This document shows, piece after piece, positions 1 through 6,501 of a DNA stretch of 64,000 bases. A program made the translations under genes and the position numbers. Under the pieces are notes generated by a model that searched no databases, was not told the DNA's origin, and saw nothing but the letters and a program-made list of their open reading frames with translations. Position 1 is the stretch's first letter. Every line of letters starts with the position of its first letter. The DNA comes from Candidatus Kapaibacterium sp. (lineage in GTDB: Bacteria; Bacteroidota; Ignavibacteria; Kapaibacteriales; WFXC01), in assembly GCA_015490805.1 (NCBI GenBank), contig WFXC01000004.1, positions 1 to 64,000 on the forward strand. The letters are read 5' to 3'.

Positions 1-2270
1 CGATTCTCGATCCGGATCGTCTGCGCAAAGTCGTAGAGATTTTCGCTGTTACACCGCTGCTCCCCTGCTGCCACCTGCCGGGCATCCCAGTCGCCCACCA
101 CAATGTGCGGCTGTACGCCCTGCCCCTCCAGAGCAACCTGCCAGCGGGCACACGCTGCTACGATCTGAACCGTATCCCGCTCCCAATCCGTTTCATCCAT
201 TCGCTCCCGCTTCGGCTCATATTCGATCACCACCTGGAGGGTATCACCCGATGCAAGCAAAGCTGGCAATGGTGGTGTTACTGCAACGATCCGGTATGCT
301 GCTGCCCACTGCAACCACACCGTATCGATCACCACCACAGAATCCGATTGGTTCACCACCCGAAGTACCTGCTGCTGCTTTGTCCCCACCCGCACCGAGC
401 CAAACTGAAAGAGCGTGTCACTGAGTGCCACCTCCGGTGCATCGTACACCACACTATCCAGCCGCACATTGCCCCGCCAGTCCACCACCCCATAGACCGC
501 TTTGCCATCACGCGAGGGATCGATCACTTCCAGTCGAAAGCGGATCTGTCGCCAGTACCCCTCGCCGCGGTTTTCCAGCACCGGTGGCGAGATCATTCGG
601 AGGCGGTAGTTATAGGACCGATCGCTGAGCAGTTCCACGCGACTGATGCCGGTATCTTCGTATGGAAGATCGAGGGAGTCATCACGGGCGGTCACGGTAG
701 CGATGCCGCAGCTATCCTGCCGCTCCAGCCGTGGTGCTTCCGTGTCCAGCTTCCCCAATCGGTTCCACGCTGCTAAGGTGTAGCCATAGCTAAAAACGTC
801 GTAGCCCAATCCATATACCATAACAGCCATCGGAACAGGCGTTACGATTTCGTACATTCCTCCAGCAACATTCCGCCATTTAGCTATCCACATCCCTTCC
901 TCCTCCGGCACCTGCTCCAACAACATTTGCGGCTGCTGATACCACAACGGTTCTCTGTTAACCCTTACCTCTTTGAGCTGTTCAGCTCGCTCCGCCCGAA
1001 TCAATAAATGGGCATAACGCTCGAAAGCCGCATTCTCACTCTGATACATCACATGATAACACCCATACTGCTCTTCTGGCACTGCCCACGTAAAAATCAC
1101 GCTCCCATCCAATACTCCTCCTCCATAGCGAACCACCAACACCGGTTTGTCCGCTTCCCAGACCGAATATCCTTCGATCCGATCTTCCATCGTTGGACTA
1201 CTCGCATACTCCAGAAAATCCCCTGCCCGCCGGAGTAACCCCGACCACTGCCCTCTTAGCTCTCCAGTGTTCTCATCATACCACCGAACGCTAAACACCG
1301 TGTTTGGCTGAGACGCTACTACCCGAAAATTATCCCCCCGAAAAACACCGTGAACGTTTTGCCGTTGCTCACACACTGCCCGCGCTATGACTTTGCGACT
1401 CCACGTCCCCACTGGGGGCACCATCTCTGCCGCTGCGTTTCCTGGGGCATCATCGTAGAGATACGGTGCATGCATATTCGTGTGATACGATATCACCCCT
1501 ACCGGCTTCGAAGCTATAATTTCAGTTCCACTGAAATCCAGTACAGCATCATCATAATCCCTTCCAGATCCCAATGACACGAAATGCAAAGCTTCTCCTT
1601 GGTGCAAAGTGACCGTATACCCTTTTCCCCAGTCCCGATTCAGATCTACTTCTTCCACCTGTCCCTGAAACTTGATCAATCCCCGACCTCGCCCCCGAAG
1701 GCGGATCTGCACAGTCGTTCCATTTTCCTTCGATACCACCACAAAGCCATTGATGTTCGGCGAGCTATCACTGGGGCCATAGCGCTCAAAAGTGTCATAA
1801 TGCCCAACATAGACATAATGAGTCCCCCAGCTTTCAGATGGATACACCACATACCATTGCGGAATAAAATTCGCCCCTATGGTGTAACTGGACACCACCA
1901 CGGCAATAGGCTTATCGGCAACTATTCGATAAGCTTCTGGTATCGGTACTCCTAACTCTTCGACTCTCAATCTTAAGGTTATCAAATCTTCGGCATCACT
2001 GAGAATCCTTAGCTCTCCTGGCTGCAGGATAATATCTGGCATTCTCCAGTCCAGCCCCGGCACAGTGACTCTTACCTTTGCCCCGTATGGAGCCATAAGG
2101 TACAAAGTAGTAGCATAATCATGCGGCTGATTAATCGCTTCGGGAGGCACCCCCGGAATCCAGAACTCTTTGCCAAGATATGTATTGCCAACAGGCGGAC
2201 ATTGCCCTAATCCTATAGATCCCCCCACGAACAACCACAGCCAAAACCACATCCTTTGGAGCCTCTGCAT
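1..2270 (-). CDS. Secreted IgGFc-binding-domain / anchor-D-type protein, 3' end outside window
   Basis: The minus strand stays open from an ATG at 2270 to the window edge, about 756 codons with no stop. Translation gives a short N-terminus, a Trp/Leu-rich hydrophobic signal (around residues 7-22) ending in GLGQ, then a long beta-rich region. Segments such as GKEFWIPG, KPIAVVVSSY, KPVGVISYHTN and the late PMAVMVYGLGYDVFSYGY match the IgGFc-binding N-terminal domain (PF17517 family) of secreted FCB-group proteins. From about residue 630 a stretch with VLRVVNQSDSVVVIDTV looks like a choice-of-anchor-D/ASH beta-sandwich, which is often followed by a sorting domain; that end is not visible. ATG codon 7 is an alternative start, with AGAGG about nine bases upstream. 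It begins 18 bp after the stop of the upstream secreted-protein gene, so the two are probably co-transcribed. Likely exported, surface or extracellular; adhesion is only a guess. Confidence 0.8.
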   Translation of the reverse strand, partial: MQRLQRMWFWLWLFVGGSIGLGQCPPVGNTYLGKEFWIPGVPPEAINQPHDYATTLYLMAPYGAKVRVTVPGLDWRMPDIILQPGELRILSDAEDLITLRLRVEELGVPIPEAYRIVADKPIAVVVSSYTIGANFIPQWYVVYPSESWGTHYVYVGHYDTFERYGPSDSSPNINGFVVVSKENGTTVQIRLRGRGRGLIKFQGQVEEVDLNRDWGKGYTVTLHQGEALHFVSLGSGRDYDDAVLDFSGTEIIASKPVGVISYHTNMHAPYLYDDAPGNAAAEMVPPVGTWSRKVIARAVCEQRQNVHGVFRGDNFRVVASQPNTVFSVRWYDENTGELRGQWSGLLRRAGDFLEYASSPTMEDRIEGYSVWEADKPVLVVRYGGGVLDGSVIFTWAVPEEQYGCYHVMYQSENAAFERYAHLLIRAERAEQLKEVRVNREPLWYQQPQMLLEQVPEEEGMWIAKWRNVAGGMYEIVTPVPMAVMVYGLGYDVFSYGYTLAAWNRLGKLDTEAPRLERQDSCGIATVTARDDSLDLPYEDTGISRVELLSDRSYNYRLRMISPPVLENRGEGYWRQIRFRLEVIDPSRDGKAVYGVVDWRGNVRLDSVVYDAPEVALSDTLFQFGSVRVGTKQQQVLRVVNQSDSVVVIDTVWLQWAAAYRIVAVTPPLPALLASGDTLQVVIEYEPKRERMDETDWERDTVQIVAACARWQVALEGQGVQPHIVVGDWDARQVAAGEQRCNSENLYDFAQTIRIEN

Positions 2271-2288: not shown

Positions 2289-3794
2289 CTACGGCAATAC
2301 GGCGTCACATCTTCGTATCTCGTCCAACCGCCGCTGTACCATCCGCGACTTTGTGTATACTTCACGGTACTGGGCTTGCTCCAGTTGCACTTGTTCTGCA
2401 ACCATATCGGCTGGTCGCAGTGGAACCCCATCATATAACTCTCTACAATCGCTCCTTACTTCCCCTCGAGGATGACTCAATCGACCATCTACACCCCATA
2501 ACACTGCACCTTGTTCCCACCATCCAAGCACATACAACACGCTATCTTGCTGTCCCTTTTCAATGTGCCGTAAATGCTTCGTTTCTCCATTATCCTCATA
2601 CACGATTCCCGGCGGCACCACCCCGACCACCATCTGAGTCTTGTCTATCTCTGCAGGTTCATATCGTCCCCGCTCATAGCCCCAATAATCCCGATATCCC
2701 CATCCAACAACGCCAAGCTCTCGATATAATGTGTCAGCTATGATCCAATACTCTATATCCTCGTACCGATCCTTTTCAATGACCTGACTCCCTGCATAGC
2801 GTCCATCATCCTGAAACCAAACCTTTCCATTGATCAACTGTCCGATCTCCCCTATGTAAATCTGCGGATATATCCCAAACCCTATCCCTGTTACCTGCAG
2901 AGTTCCCCATCCAACAGCCAGTACCCACGCTTTCCCAGTTGTTGGCTCTTCCGCTATCCGGACCTTGCGAAATTCCGTACACTGATACTTCGGCTCCACG
3001 TATGCTATATTCCCTATCGGCACACCATTGATCCCATCTACCACCAATAACCATCCTTGCTGCCGTTCATTGACACAACCTGCTGGCGGTGGCGGTGTAT
3101 AAAAATCTGTTATACGACTCCCGACCAGAACCACCACGCCACTACTGAGTTTTTCCATATCCCAACACCACAACGGAGACACATCGTGATCTGCTGTTGC
3201 CACGTCCCGGTACAACTGTATCCATCGTATTTGCCCCTGCTCATCAATTTGTAACAAAAAAACATCCTGCTGCTCTCCCATCCGTGCATAGCCACATACC
3301 AAGTATATCGAATCCCGGTACTCCAAAATCTTTGTTGGCACAACTACTGAATAACTCCTCCCCTGGCTGTCCTGAATGTCTATAATCTGCCGCCACCGAT
3401 GCACCCCCGCTGTGTCAATGTTAATCAGCGAAAGCAAGGTATCCATCCCCCCAGACTTATACTCGATCATCGCAATGATGTACCCATCGCGCGCCCCATT
3501 GCGAACTACACTTCTTCCTTCGATGTTCCGACGATAGGCACTCTCCAAACGTACAAAATCGACATATCCTCCTACAGGATCAACTTCTCCCACATACACC
3601 TGAGAAAGACGCTGCTTTGGAAAGAGATTCAACCCAACGATTGCATCTTTGAGGACTGCTGGCGTTCGCAGGTCAAAGTCACGAACCACACCCCCAATCT
3701 GAGGAGGAAGCTCAAATTTTAATCGCCACACATCCAGTTGGGCTGACAGCGGGAGGGTCATCAGAAACAGGAGGGCGGTTACACACACACACAC
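2289..3794 (-). CDS. Secreted protein of unknown function, start disrupted by (GT)9 repeat
   Basis: The open frame of 501 codons has a GTG inside a (GT)9 tract as its only in-frame start, with no ribosome site of its own. The best start is an ATG at 3829-3827 preceded by AGGA eight bases upstream. It encodes a typical signal-peptide N-region (MTKAKTFSANR), but with nine GT units it reaches TAA at 3781-3779. Removing one GT unit, or adding two, joins that ATG to this frame and yields a complete signal peptide (VCVCVTALLFLMTLPLSA-Q). The mature part is beta-rich with repeated Trp/Gly/Tyr motifs and resembles secreted propeller or anchor proteins of FCB bacteria, but I recognise no family. It ends 18 bp before the IgGFc-type gene. 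The sequence as given is the OFF phase, or carries a repeat-length error. Confidence 0.75.
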   Translation of the reverse strand: MCVCVTALLFLMTLPLSAQLDVWRLKFELPPQIGGVVRDFDLRTPAVLKDAIVGLNLFPKQRLSQVYVGEVDPVGGYVDFVRLESAYRRNIEGRSVVRNGARDGYIIAMIEYKSGGMDTLLSLINIDTAGVHRWRQIIDIQDSQGRSYSVVVPTKILEYRDSIYLVCGYARMGEQQDVFLLQIDEQGQIRWIQLYRDVATADHDVSPLWCWDMEKLSSGVVVLVGSRITDFYTPPPPAGCVNERQQGWLLVVDGINGVPIGNIAYVEPKYQCTEFRKVRIAEEPTTGKAWVLAVGWGTLQVTGIGFGIYPQIYIGEIGQLINGKVWFQDDGRYAGSQVIEKDRYEDIEYWIIADTLYRELGVVGWGYRDYWGYERGRYEPAEIDKTQMVVGVVPPGIVYEDNGETKHLRHIEKGQQDSVLYVLGWWEQGAVLWGVDGRLSHPRGEVRSDCRELYDGVPLRPADMVAEQVQLEQAQYREVYTKSRMVQRRLDEIRRCDAVLP

Positions 3795-3798
3795 ACAC
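3781..3798 (-). repeat. (GT)9 simple sequence repeat in signal-peptide codons
   Basis: Nine perfect GT units on the coding (minus) strand lie between the codons for SANR and TALLFL of the signal peptide. Counting codons, 8 or 11 units keep the ATG at 3829 open into the 501-codon frame, while 9 or 10 units do not. This is the arrangement of a slipped-strand contingency locus. Confidence 0.9.
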
Positions 3799-3857
3799 GA
3801 TTTGCAGAAAATGTTTTCGCTTTTGTCATTTTGTCATTCCTGAAGTTGTGAAACGGA

Positions 3858-3871: not shown

Positions 3872-3879
3872 CAAATATA
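3872..3879 (-). promoter_or_regulatory. Bacteroidota-type promoter, -7 element TATATTTG
   Basis: On the minus strand TATATTTG fits the TAnnTTTG element recognised by the Bacteroidota primary sigma factor. A CTTG 20 bases upstream approximates the TTTG -33 element. It lies 43 bases before the ATG at 3829 and would drive the two secreted-protein genes. Confidence 0.5.
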
Positions 3880-3914
3880 CAAAAAATCCCGAACACAAGC
3901 AAGACCGTCGAAGA

Positions 3915-4345
3915 GGGTCCGGGAGGGTATGCTTCAGCGGGCATTTACTGGAAGCGCATCCTTTAGGGTGCCTGGGAGCGCACGCTCTTAGGCGTGCAAC
4001 GATGCCGACTGAAGTCGGCGCTCCCAGTTCACCGGGAGGGTATGCTTCAGCAGGCAAATTCCCTTCCCCGAACCCTCTCCCGGAGGGAGAGGGAATCCTG
4101 ACCCCTGTAGGGGCGACCCACTGGGTCGCCCATCGGGCGAAGCATTGCTTCACCCCTACCCGTTCCTTGAGGTGTACCCTATAGCGGGCATCCTTTGCCG
4201 ACGAAAGTCAGCGCTCCAAAAGAGAGGCGCACGCTTTAAGATGCACATACTGGGAGCGCACGCTTCAGCGTGCATTTACCGGGAACGCACCCCTTTAGGG
4301 TGCACTTTCTTTGCCGACTAAAGGCGGCGCTCTCAGTCATTGCCG
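3915..4345. repeat. Patch of dispersed palindromic repeats of several families
   Basis: This gene-free stretch is almost entirely short palindromes. GGGAGGGTATGCTTCAGC occurs at 3921 and 4034. GCACGCT...AGCGTGC-type hairpins occur near 3979, 4252 and 4281. GCCGACTnAAGnCGGCGCTC occurs near 4004, 4198 and 4313. A CCCTCTCCC/GGGAGAGGG hairpin lies near 4073-4093, and GGGCGACCCACTGGGTCGCC near 4111-4130, followed by a GCGAAGCATTGCTTC arm. Such units are known as intergenic repeats scattered through many genomes. No transposase is present. A 124-codon minus-strand frame here is not a gene. Confidence 0.75.
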
Positions 4346-4513: not shown

Positions 4514-6454
4514 TTATTTGTCATCATCGACAATGGTGTAATCGGCTTCTTCGACTCCTCCTTCACCACCACCTTTGCCGGTGTCGGTTGTTGTTGCACC
4601 TCCTTCTGCCTGCGTCGTTGTAGCTTTCCCTGCCTCGGCTTGCTCATAGAGGTACTTCGACGCCTTGTTCCAGGCTTCGTTCAATTGCGAGATCGCCTGC
4701 TCGATCTTCTGAATGTCGTCCTCTTTCATCACGCTCTTGAGATGCTCTGCAGCATTTTCGACTGCTGCCTTGAGCTCCGGCGTGAGCTTTTCCTGCACTT
4801 CCCGAAGTTCCTTTTCGGTTGTGTAGAGCAGTGTATCCGCCTGATTCCGGAGTTCCACCAGACGTTTGCGCCGACGGTCCTCTTCGGCGTGCTCCTGTGC
4901 TTCGCGCTTCATTCGCTCGATTTCTTCTTCACTCAGCGTCGTTGCACCCGTGATCCGCACTGTTTGTTCTTTCCCGGTCGCTTTATCTTTTGCCGTTACC
5001 GTCAGAATGCCATTGGCGTCGATGTCGAAGGTTACCTCAATCTGTGGCACACCTCGCGGTGCAGGTGGAATTCCATCCAGATGGAATCGACCCAGAGATC
5101 GGTTATCCGCTGCCAGAGGACGCTCTCCCTGCAGCACGTGGACTTCCACCGACGTCTGGTTATCCGTCGCCGTTGTGAAGATCTCAGTCTTCTTGGTCGG
5201 AATGGTCGTCCCCGCTGGAATCATCGGCGTCATTACGCCACCCATTGTTTCGATACCAAGGGTAATTGGCACAACATCCAGCAGGAGAATATCCTTCACC
5301 TCGCCTGCCAGCACTGCCCCTTGAATGGCGGCGCCAATAGCAACCACTTCATCCGGATTGACCGTCTTTGCTGGATCTTTGCCGAAGAATTCTTTCACCA
5401 ATTGCTGGATCCGCGGTATCCGGGTGGATCCACCCACCAGAATTACCTCATCAATATCGCGCGGTGTTAACTTCGCCATTTCCAGCGCTTTTTCACACGG
5501 ACCCAAGGTCTTGCGGAAAAGATCCTCACATAACTGTTCGAACTTGGCACGGGTGATTTTCATCACTAGGTGCAAAGGACCCTGCTGGGTTGCTGTAATG
5601 AATGGCAAATTGACTTCGGTCTCCAGCTTCTGCGACAGCTCGATTTTCGCCTTCTCTGCCGCTTCCCGCAACCGTTGCAACGCCATTGGATCCTGACGGA
5701 GATCGACGCCGTGCTCCTTCTGGAACTCATCGGCAATGTAGTCGATCAACCGTTGATCAAAGTTATCACCGCCCAGATGGGTGTCGCCGTGTGTTGCCTT
5801 GACTTCCACAACTCCTTCGCCAATTTCCAGAATGGAAATGTCGAATGTTCCACCACCGAGGTCATAGACTGCTACTGTAAGCGTTTTTCCTTCTTTATCC
5901 AATCCGTATGCCAGAGCAGCGGCGGTCGGCTCATTGATAATCCGCTGCACTTTGAGTCCAGCAATTTCTCCTGCCGCCTTGGTCGCCTGCCGTTGCGCAT
6001 CGTGGAAGTAGGCAGGAACGGTAATCACGGCATCTTCTATTTTTTGCCCCAGGTAATCTTCGGCTGCACTCTTCAGCTTCTGCAATACCTTTGCAGAAAT
6101 TTCTTCCGGGGCGTAGAGCTTACCTTCAATTTCAACCCGCACCGATGCCCCATTGTTGTATGGCACCACCTTGTACGGCACCATTTTCGCTTCTTCTTCT
6201 ACCTCATCCCATCGGCGACCAATGAAGCGCTTAACGGAATACACCGTATTCTTGGGATTGGTGATTGCCTGACGCTTTGCTGCTTCGCCCACTAACCACT
6301 CACCATTTTTCGTGAGCGCTACGACCGATGGTGTCAGGCGTGATCCCTCCTGGTTTGGGATCACCACGGGCGATCCTCCTTCCATTACGGCTACAACCGA
6401 ATTGGTTGTTCCCAGATCTATCCCGATAATCTTCTTTCCTCTCGTTTCTGCCAT
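4514..6454 (-). CDS. dnaK: Molecular chaperone DnaK (Hsp70)
   Basis: ATP-driven cytosolic Hsp70 chaperone, 646 residues. The start is taken at 6454 because AGGAG lies seven bases before it and homologues begin just before [14 protein letters not shown]; an in-frame upstream ATG at 6484 would add ten unlikely residues. The N-terminal nucleotide-binding domain shows the phosphate-1 loop ([12 protein letters not shown]), [11 protein letters not shown] and [14 protein letters not shown]. The beta substrate-binding domain follows ([16 protein letters not shown]), then a helical lid and an acidic tail ending IVDDDK. It is the last gene of a minus-strand heat-shock group after two Hsp20 genes. dnaJ and grpE are not in the window. 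Confidence 0.98.
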
Positions 6455-6501
6455 TGCCTTTCTCCTTTCTTTGTTCCACTTCACTTACTTTGATAAATGT
6501 A

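Follow-up and report, generated by a model that had tools for sequence, protein, structure and literature searches.

Structure of the locus

The window analysed here is a 64,000-nt stretch of DNA (positions 1 to 64,000 of contig WFXC01000004.1, Candidatus Kapaibacterium assembly GCA_015490805.1). Two genes, referred to below as A and B, lie on its minus strand behind a leader that carries a GT repeat. The features are as follows.

4514..6484, minus strand: dnaK, the upstream flank that marks the genomic site
3872..3886, minus strand: promoter-like TTTTTTGTATATTTG, 51 nt 5' of the ATG; found in 21 of the 21 copies compared
3799..3829, minus strand: ATG and n-region codons (MTKAKTFSAN) and one further base; the ATG-tract distance is 31 nt in every copy
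3781..3798, minus strand: (GT)9 tract, encoding alternating V and C, with which the signal-peptide h-region begins; the ON frame needs 8 or 11 units
3779..3781, minus strand: TAA closing the OFF frame
3741..3780, minus strand: remaining signal peptide, TALLFLMTLPLSA, followed by Q; the A and the Q are invariant across the family
2289..3780, minus strand: body of gene A, 496 codons past the tract; predicted to encode a secreted protein from a family not yet described, with a tentative beta-propeller fold
3..2270, minus strand: gene B, incomplete at the contig end; encodes a signal peptide, an IgGFc_binding domain (PF17517) and a HYDIN/ASH-like domain

As the first-pass annotation had described, the minus strand reads from an ATG (3829-3827) through 31 nt into (GT)9 (3798-3781) and directly into a TAA (3781-3779). 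The tract occupies codons 11-16 counted from this ATG, and the frame so read is MTKAKTFSANRVCVCV, followed by the stop. Removal of one GT or addition of two was also correctly said to join the long frame and to complete the signal peptide: with 8 or 11 units the frame is open across the tract to the stop at 2289, and the ATG continues via TALLFLMTLPLSAQ into a frame of about 511 codons whose signal peptide is regular and whose N-terminus is MTKAKTFSANRVCVCVTALLFLMTLPLSA before the cleavage site and Q. By unit number, the window copy is thus ON at 8 and 11 and OFF at 7, 9, 10 and 12. The cleavage context of gene A (A before, Q after the site) agrees with the glutamine rule for Bacteroidetes signal peptidase I substrates (PMC5837995).

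The ATG had further been credited with a good ribosome site. AGGA is indeed present upstream, and the wording was generous, the element conserved across copies being an A-rich stretch immediately 5' of the ATG. Within TTTTTTGTATATTTG, TATATTTG matches TAnnTTTG, which we take to be the Bacteroidota -7 consensus. Upstream of the locus (window positions 3900-4300), the intergenic DNA contains scattered repeats of the GAAGCGTGCGCTCCCAG type, which recur near other copies.

Proteins A and B

The product of gene A had no match in Pfam, NCBIfam or the PDB sequences (the latter searched with an A profile). An AlphaFold model built from six sequences had a pLDDT of 53 and a pTM of 0.66, and many of its structural neighbours were beta-propellers; because the model is of low confidence, we take the beta-propeller assignment as a tentative hint. 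A Hop adhesin of Helicobacter pylori (OipA, SabA) was considered as well and rejected, since Pfam and NCBIfam gave no match; gene A would work like these genes and not be one of them.

Gene B starts at 2270, 18 nt past the stop of gene A at 2289, which is the spacing given in the first-pass annotation, and every complete A copy is likewise followed by B. The IgGFc_binding domain (PF17517) was detected with 108.6 bits (curated cut-off, 25.6; E = 5e-31), together with HYDIN/ASH repeats. Full-length relatives of B have about 1400 amino acids, and in one of them the C-terminus resembled the T9SS sorting domain TIGR04183 at a score below the cut-off (15.3 bits against 23); the window copy is cut before the C-terminus. 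Gene B thus shares the full domain with IgGFc_binding proteins and differs from them in the added HYDIN/ASH repeats and the weakly T9SS-like tail, and the name of the domain is no proof of antibody binding. An SD-like GGGAG precedes B's own ATG. It is plausible that the A tract gates gene B through polarity.

Dinucleotide runs in the genome

Under a first-order Markov model, (GT)9 is expected 1e-6 times in the window and 4e-5 times in the genome; a scan of the window for mono- to hexanucleotide runs gave nothing of note besides it. The whole genome (2.67 Mb) holds nine GT runs of at least 8 units, against 0.0007 expected by chance. These genome-wide counts derive from pattern searches.

All nine runs share one anatomy and belong to one paralogous family with a common promoter and leader: TTTTTTGTATATTTG, the ATG after 51 or 53 nt, ten MTKAKTFSAN-type codons, the tract and then (T)LLFAMTLPLAAQ. 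The leaders comprise 12 distinct sequences with 0 indels and 0 in-frame stops before the tract. A first scan of the contigs with a single protein as the query gave no match; tblastn with gene A placed family members directly behind six of the nine runs, the window copy included, and the three copies that had no tblastn match (C5, C11 and C20) are those in which contig ends cut gene A within its first codons. Three of the nine copies are ON (C27 with 12 units, C32 with 10 and C45 with 9) and six are OFF (C1 with 12, C2, the window copy, with 9, C5 with 10, C11 with 10, C20 with 8 and C35 with 11), where C5 was counted as OFF on the basis that it needs 8 or 11 units, the contig ending early there. 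The unit number required for ON varies among the genes because the bases 3' of the tract differ.

Tract length and selection in sister genomes

The family is also present in two congeneric sister genomes, the Candidatus Kapaibacterium assemblies JALWUI01 and JALWJX01. Copies are designated below by genome, G000 for the present one and G001 and G002 for the sisters. Across the three genomes, the dinucleotide runs of at least 6 units all lie in signal-peptide codons (G000, 11 of 11; G001, 4 of 4; G002, 9 of 9; together 24 of 24), and AT or GC runs of six units are absent. Poly-G/C runs of at least 9 were excluded from these counts, their context being a mixture of contig ends, intergenic runs and coding sequence with no clear switch pattern. 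Homopolymer G/C runs in matching context were observed with 11 (G000:C15, L139), 9 (G002:C116, L143) and 11 (G001:C159, L145) residues, and no clear switch role was seen for them.

The three genomes together give 20 readable copies, 4 ON and 16 OFF. Orthologous sites were recognised by their upstream flanks, and in 7 of the 7 orthologous-site pairs with complete tracts the lengths are unequal (12/8; 10/12/9; 10/14; 9/13; 12/13), each length being one consensus per assembly rather than read-level or within-strain variation. The tract is therefore not fixed at 8 or 11 units among relatives. The sister assemblies are of low coverage (2-3x k-mer coverage) and most copies sit in near-identical repeats close to contig ends; individual lengths or junctions may therefore be wrong.

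Gene A is under purifying selection, with open frames kept between relatives and dN/dS of 0.11-0.32 (0.27-0.32 for the window copy against its relatives). The same holds where both copies are OFF (G002:C131 against G001:C159, and G002:C27 against G001:C90). That genes OFF in the assembly are nevertheless kept by selection is what a reversible switch predicts.

At some orthologous sites, gene A and the tract are missing and just the last 60-70 codons of A precede B (L058, L059, L062, L065, L076, L080 and L082). Such a remnant is often a short ORF that has an ATG of its own and is preceded by promoter-like sequence; the tract-less loci resemble B genes released from the switch, or translational coupling remnants. 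The A-B pair is also gained or lost as a whole between species: it is absent behind the dnaK flank in G001, and the orthologous flanks found to lack it are G001:C195 (L121), G001:C203 (L127), G001:C58 (L129), G000:C36 (L130), G001:C160 (L131) and G000:C47 (L132).

Possible exchange of A types

At 4 of the 5 sites where the type was readable in two species, the same flank is followed by different A subfamilies (G000:C32, for instance, has LDVWRL and G002:C115 has GLHVFERTIG), which suggests cassette exchange. Conversely, A genes that are almost the same (99% at the amino acid level) occupy different sites in G002:C131 and G001:C159, and most copies agree nearly completely in the last part of B. 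It is conceivable, though we would put it at somewhat less than an even chance, that the repeat-switched leaders stay fixed while A-B cassettes recombine through their common leader and the end of B, so that secreted proteins would vary combinatorially. We did not make this our main claim because the shared leader may yield chimeric assembly.

A second family with CT and AC runs

An unrelated gene for a predicted secreted protein has the same design, with a CT or AC run in its signal-peptide codons. This second family (L133-L136: G002:C64, G001:C82, G000:C16 and G000:C35) holds all of the GA/CT runs and the remaining AC/GT runs of at least 6 units (G000:C35 at 15798, and G002:C64). One G000 copy has (CT)13 and is in frame, reading MKVRRLPARSISSAS(LS)nVKTFLLTLLAIAALSSSMFPVTVEAQ; the orthologous locus in G001, with (CT)14, is out of frame, the two being 92.8% identical over 4 kb. 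A paralogue in G002 carries (AC)11 in frame, and a remnant in G000 carries (AC)6 with a stop after the signal peptide. Since neither CT nor AC can be a start codon, translation of the second family must begin at an upstream ATG. A 238-bp leader with the AC tract was found to be common to unrelated sites.

Runs of another kind were seen in other families of the same order (G075, G089, G012, G044, G073 and G076; L102-L119), where (GT)9-20 follows a conserved TGTGG(A)TAACT...TT motif that is also DnaA box-like. These runs are non-coding and lie about 20-120 nt 5' of genes that mostly start with a signal peptide or a lipoprotein signal; possibly they represent transcriptional phase variation.

Interpretation of the tract

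Very probably this is a contingency (phase-variable) locus switched by its tract, and the genome would contain at least nine GT loci of this kind. The first-pass annotation had proposed a contingency locus in the OFF state for the window alone, and this proposal is strengthened by the recurrence throughout the family, the unequal orthologous lengths, the conserved frames and the CT13/CT14 parallel.

Gene A might instead be translated from a GTG inside the tract and always be made, in which case the tract length would be no switch. Such a GTG stays in frame with gene A at every length and is the start chosen by gene callers, and it would account for the conserved frames in the copies that the ATG model scores as OFF; the ON and OFF counts fail to separate the two models, and we counted the low share of ON copies (4/20) against switching. 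A product started from GTG, however, would carry neither K nor R ahead of the h-region and so have no charged n-region, and the constant ATG-tract spacing (31 nt in all 12 distinct leaders, although the UTR preceding them varies from 51 to 53 nt) as well as the restriction of dinucleotide runs to signal peptides would go unexplained. This explanation is further weakened by the CT/AC design of the second family, in which the repeat supplies no start codon, and we regard it as improbable.

We give about half as much weight to the idea that the repeats have no function and came about as a side effect of leader duplication and recombination: every copy would owe its GT run to homology, gene conversion would spread the run, and lengths would change by recombination or drift rather than by selected switching. 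The near identity of promoter and leader in all copies, the differing A subfamilies behind the same flank (4/5 comparable sites) and the nearly identical end of B would all fit, but from common ancestry one would not expect CT or AC runs at the corresponding signal-peptide position of another family, and frames that are OFF in both species under long-term purifying selection need periodic expression. Hardly credible, and the least probable of all, is that faulty assembly or sequencing produced the tract lengths and that the true genes are in frame: the assemblies are drafts with many copies close to contig ends, but 16 of the 20 copies are out of frame across three separate assemblies, and orthologous sites differ by up to four units (9/13, 10/14). 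Runs of 18-28 nt are also short relative to the usual read lengths, which again counts against such errors.

Model and relation to known systems

For the phase-variable switch we propose the following, starting from what is observed directly, namely the anatomy, its family-wide recurrence, the length differences between relatives and the conserved frames. Slipped-strand mispairing in replication would add or remove GT units. With the right unit number modulo three, the conserved ATG would be read through the tract, the signal peptide completed and protein A secreted, presumably to the cell surface; with a wrong number, a short peptide of about 16-50 codons would be made instead. Independent switching of several loci could give a population with many combinations of secreted A proteins, perhaps extending to the IgGFc-type B proteins behind them if the gating holds. 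The benefit may be escape from phage, predators or other recognition.

ON/OFF switching by repeat length is known from pathogens. The closest known cases are oipA, babA and sabA of H. pylori, which switch through slipped-strand mispairing, with CT repeats in the signal-peptide codons of oipA (PMC10564699; for sabA, PMC2715451). Both systems have a dinucleotide run in the 5' codons (in the signal peptide for oipA), paralogous genes of surface proteins and ON/OFF states set by the frame. The present system differs in its protein families, its phylum and the use of mainly GT instead of CT; moreover, the tract encodes V-C of the h-region, and behind gene A lies a second secreted-protein gene of the same orientation. 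Neisseria, Haemophilus and Campylobacter also have simple-sequence contingency loci (reviewed in PMC11868660), with many genes per genome, mostly surface-related, switched independently by repeats, as is proposed here; those organisms are host-adapted, whereas the present one belongs to an uncultivated Kapabacteria lineage and has its dinucleotide runs confined to signal peptides. Phase variation in Bacteroides, which is of the same phylum in the broad sense and likewise concerns surface-related genes, is inversion-based (2025 review, PMC11868660), acting through promoter or gene inversion in contrast to the repeat slippage proposed here. In the literature that we searched, no report of phase variation in Kapabacteria was found.

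For annotation, the finding means that such genes get called as always expressed, from a doubtful GTG inside the tract. A passage in PMC4060949 cites a reported link between long simple repeats in prokaryotes and dependence on eukaryotic hosts. The Kapabacteria case makes the selective cause of such switching testable, with phages, predators, a host and surface competition as the candidates.
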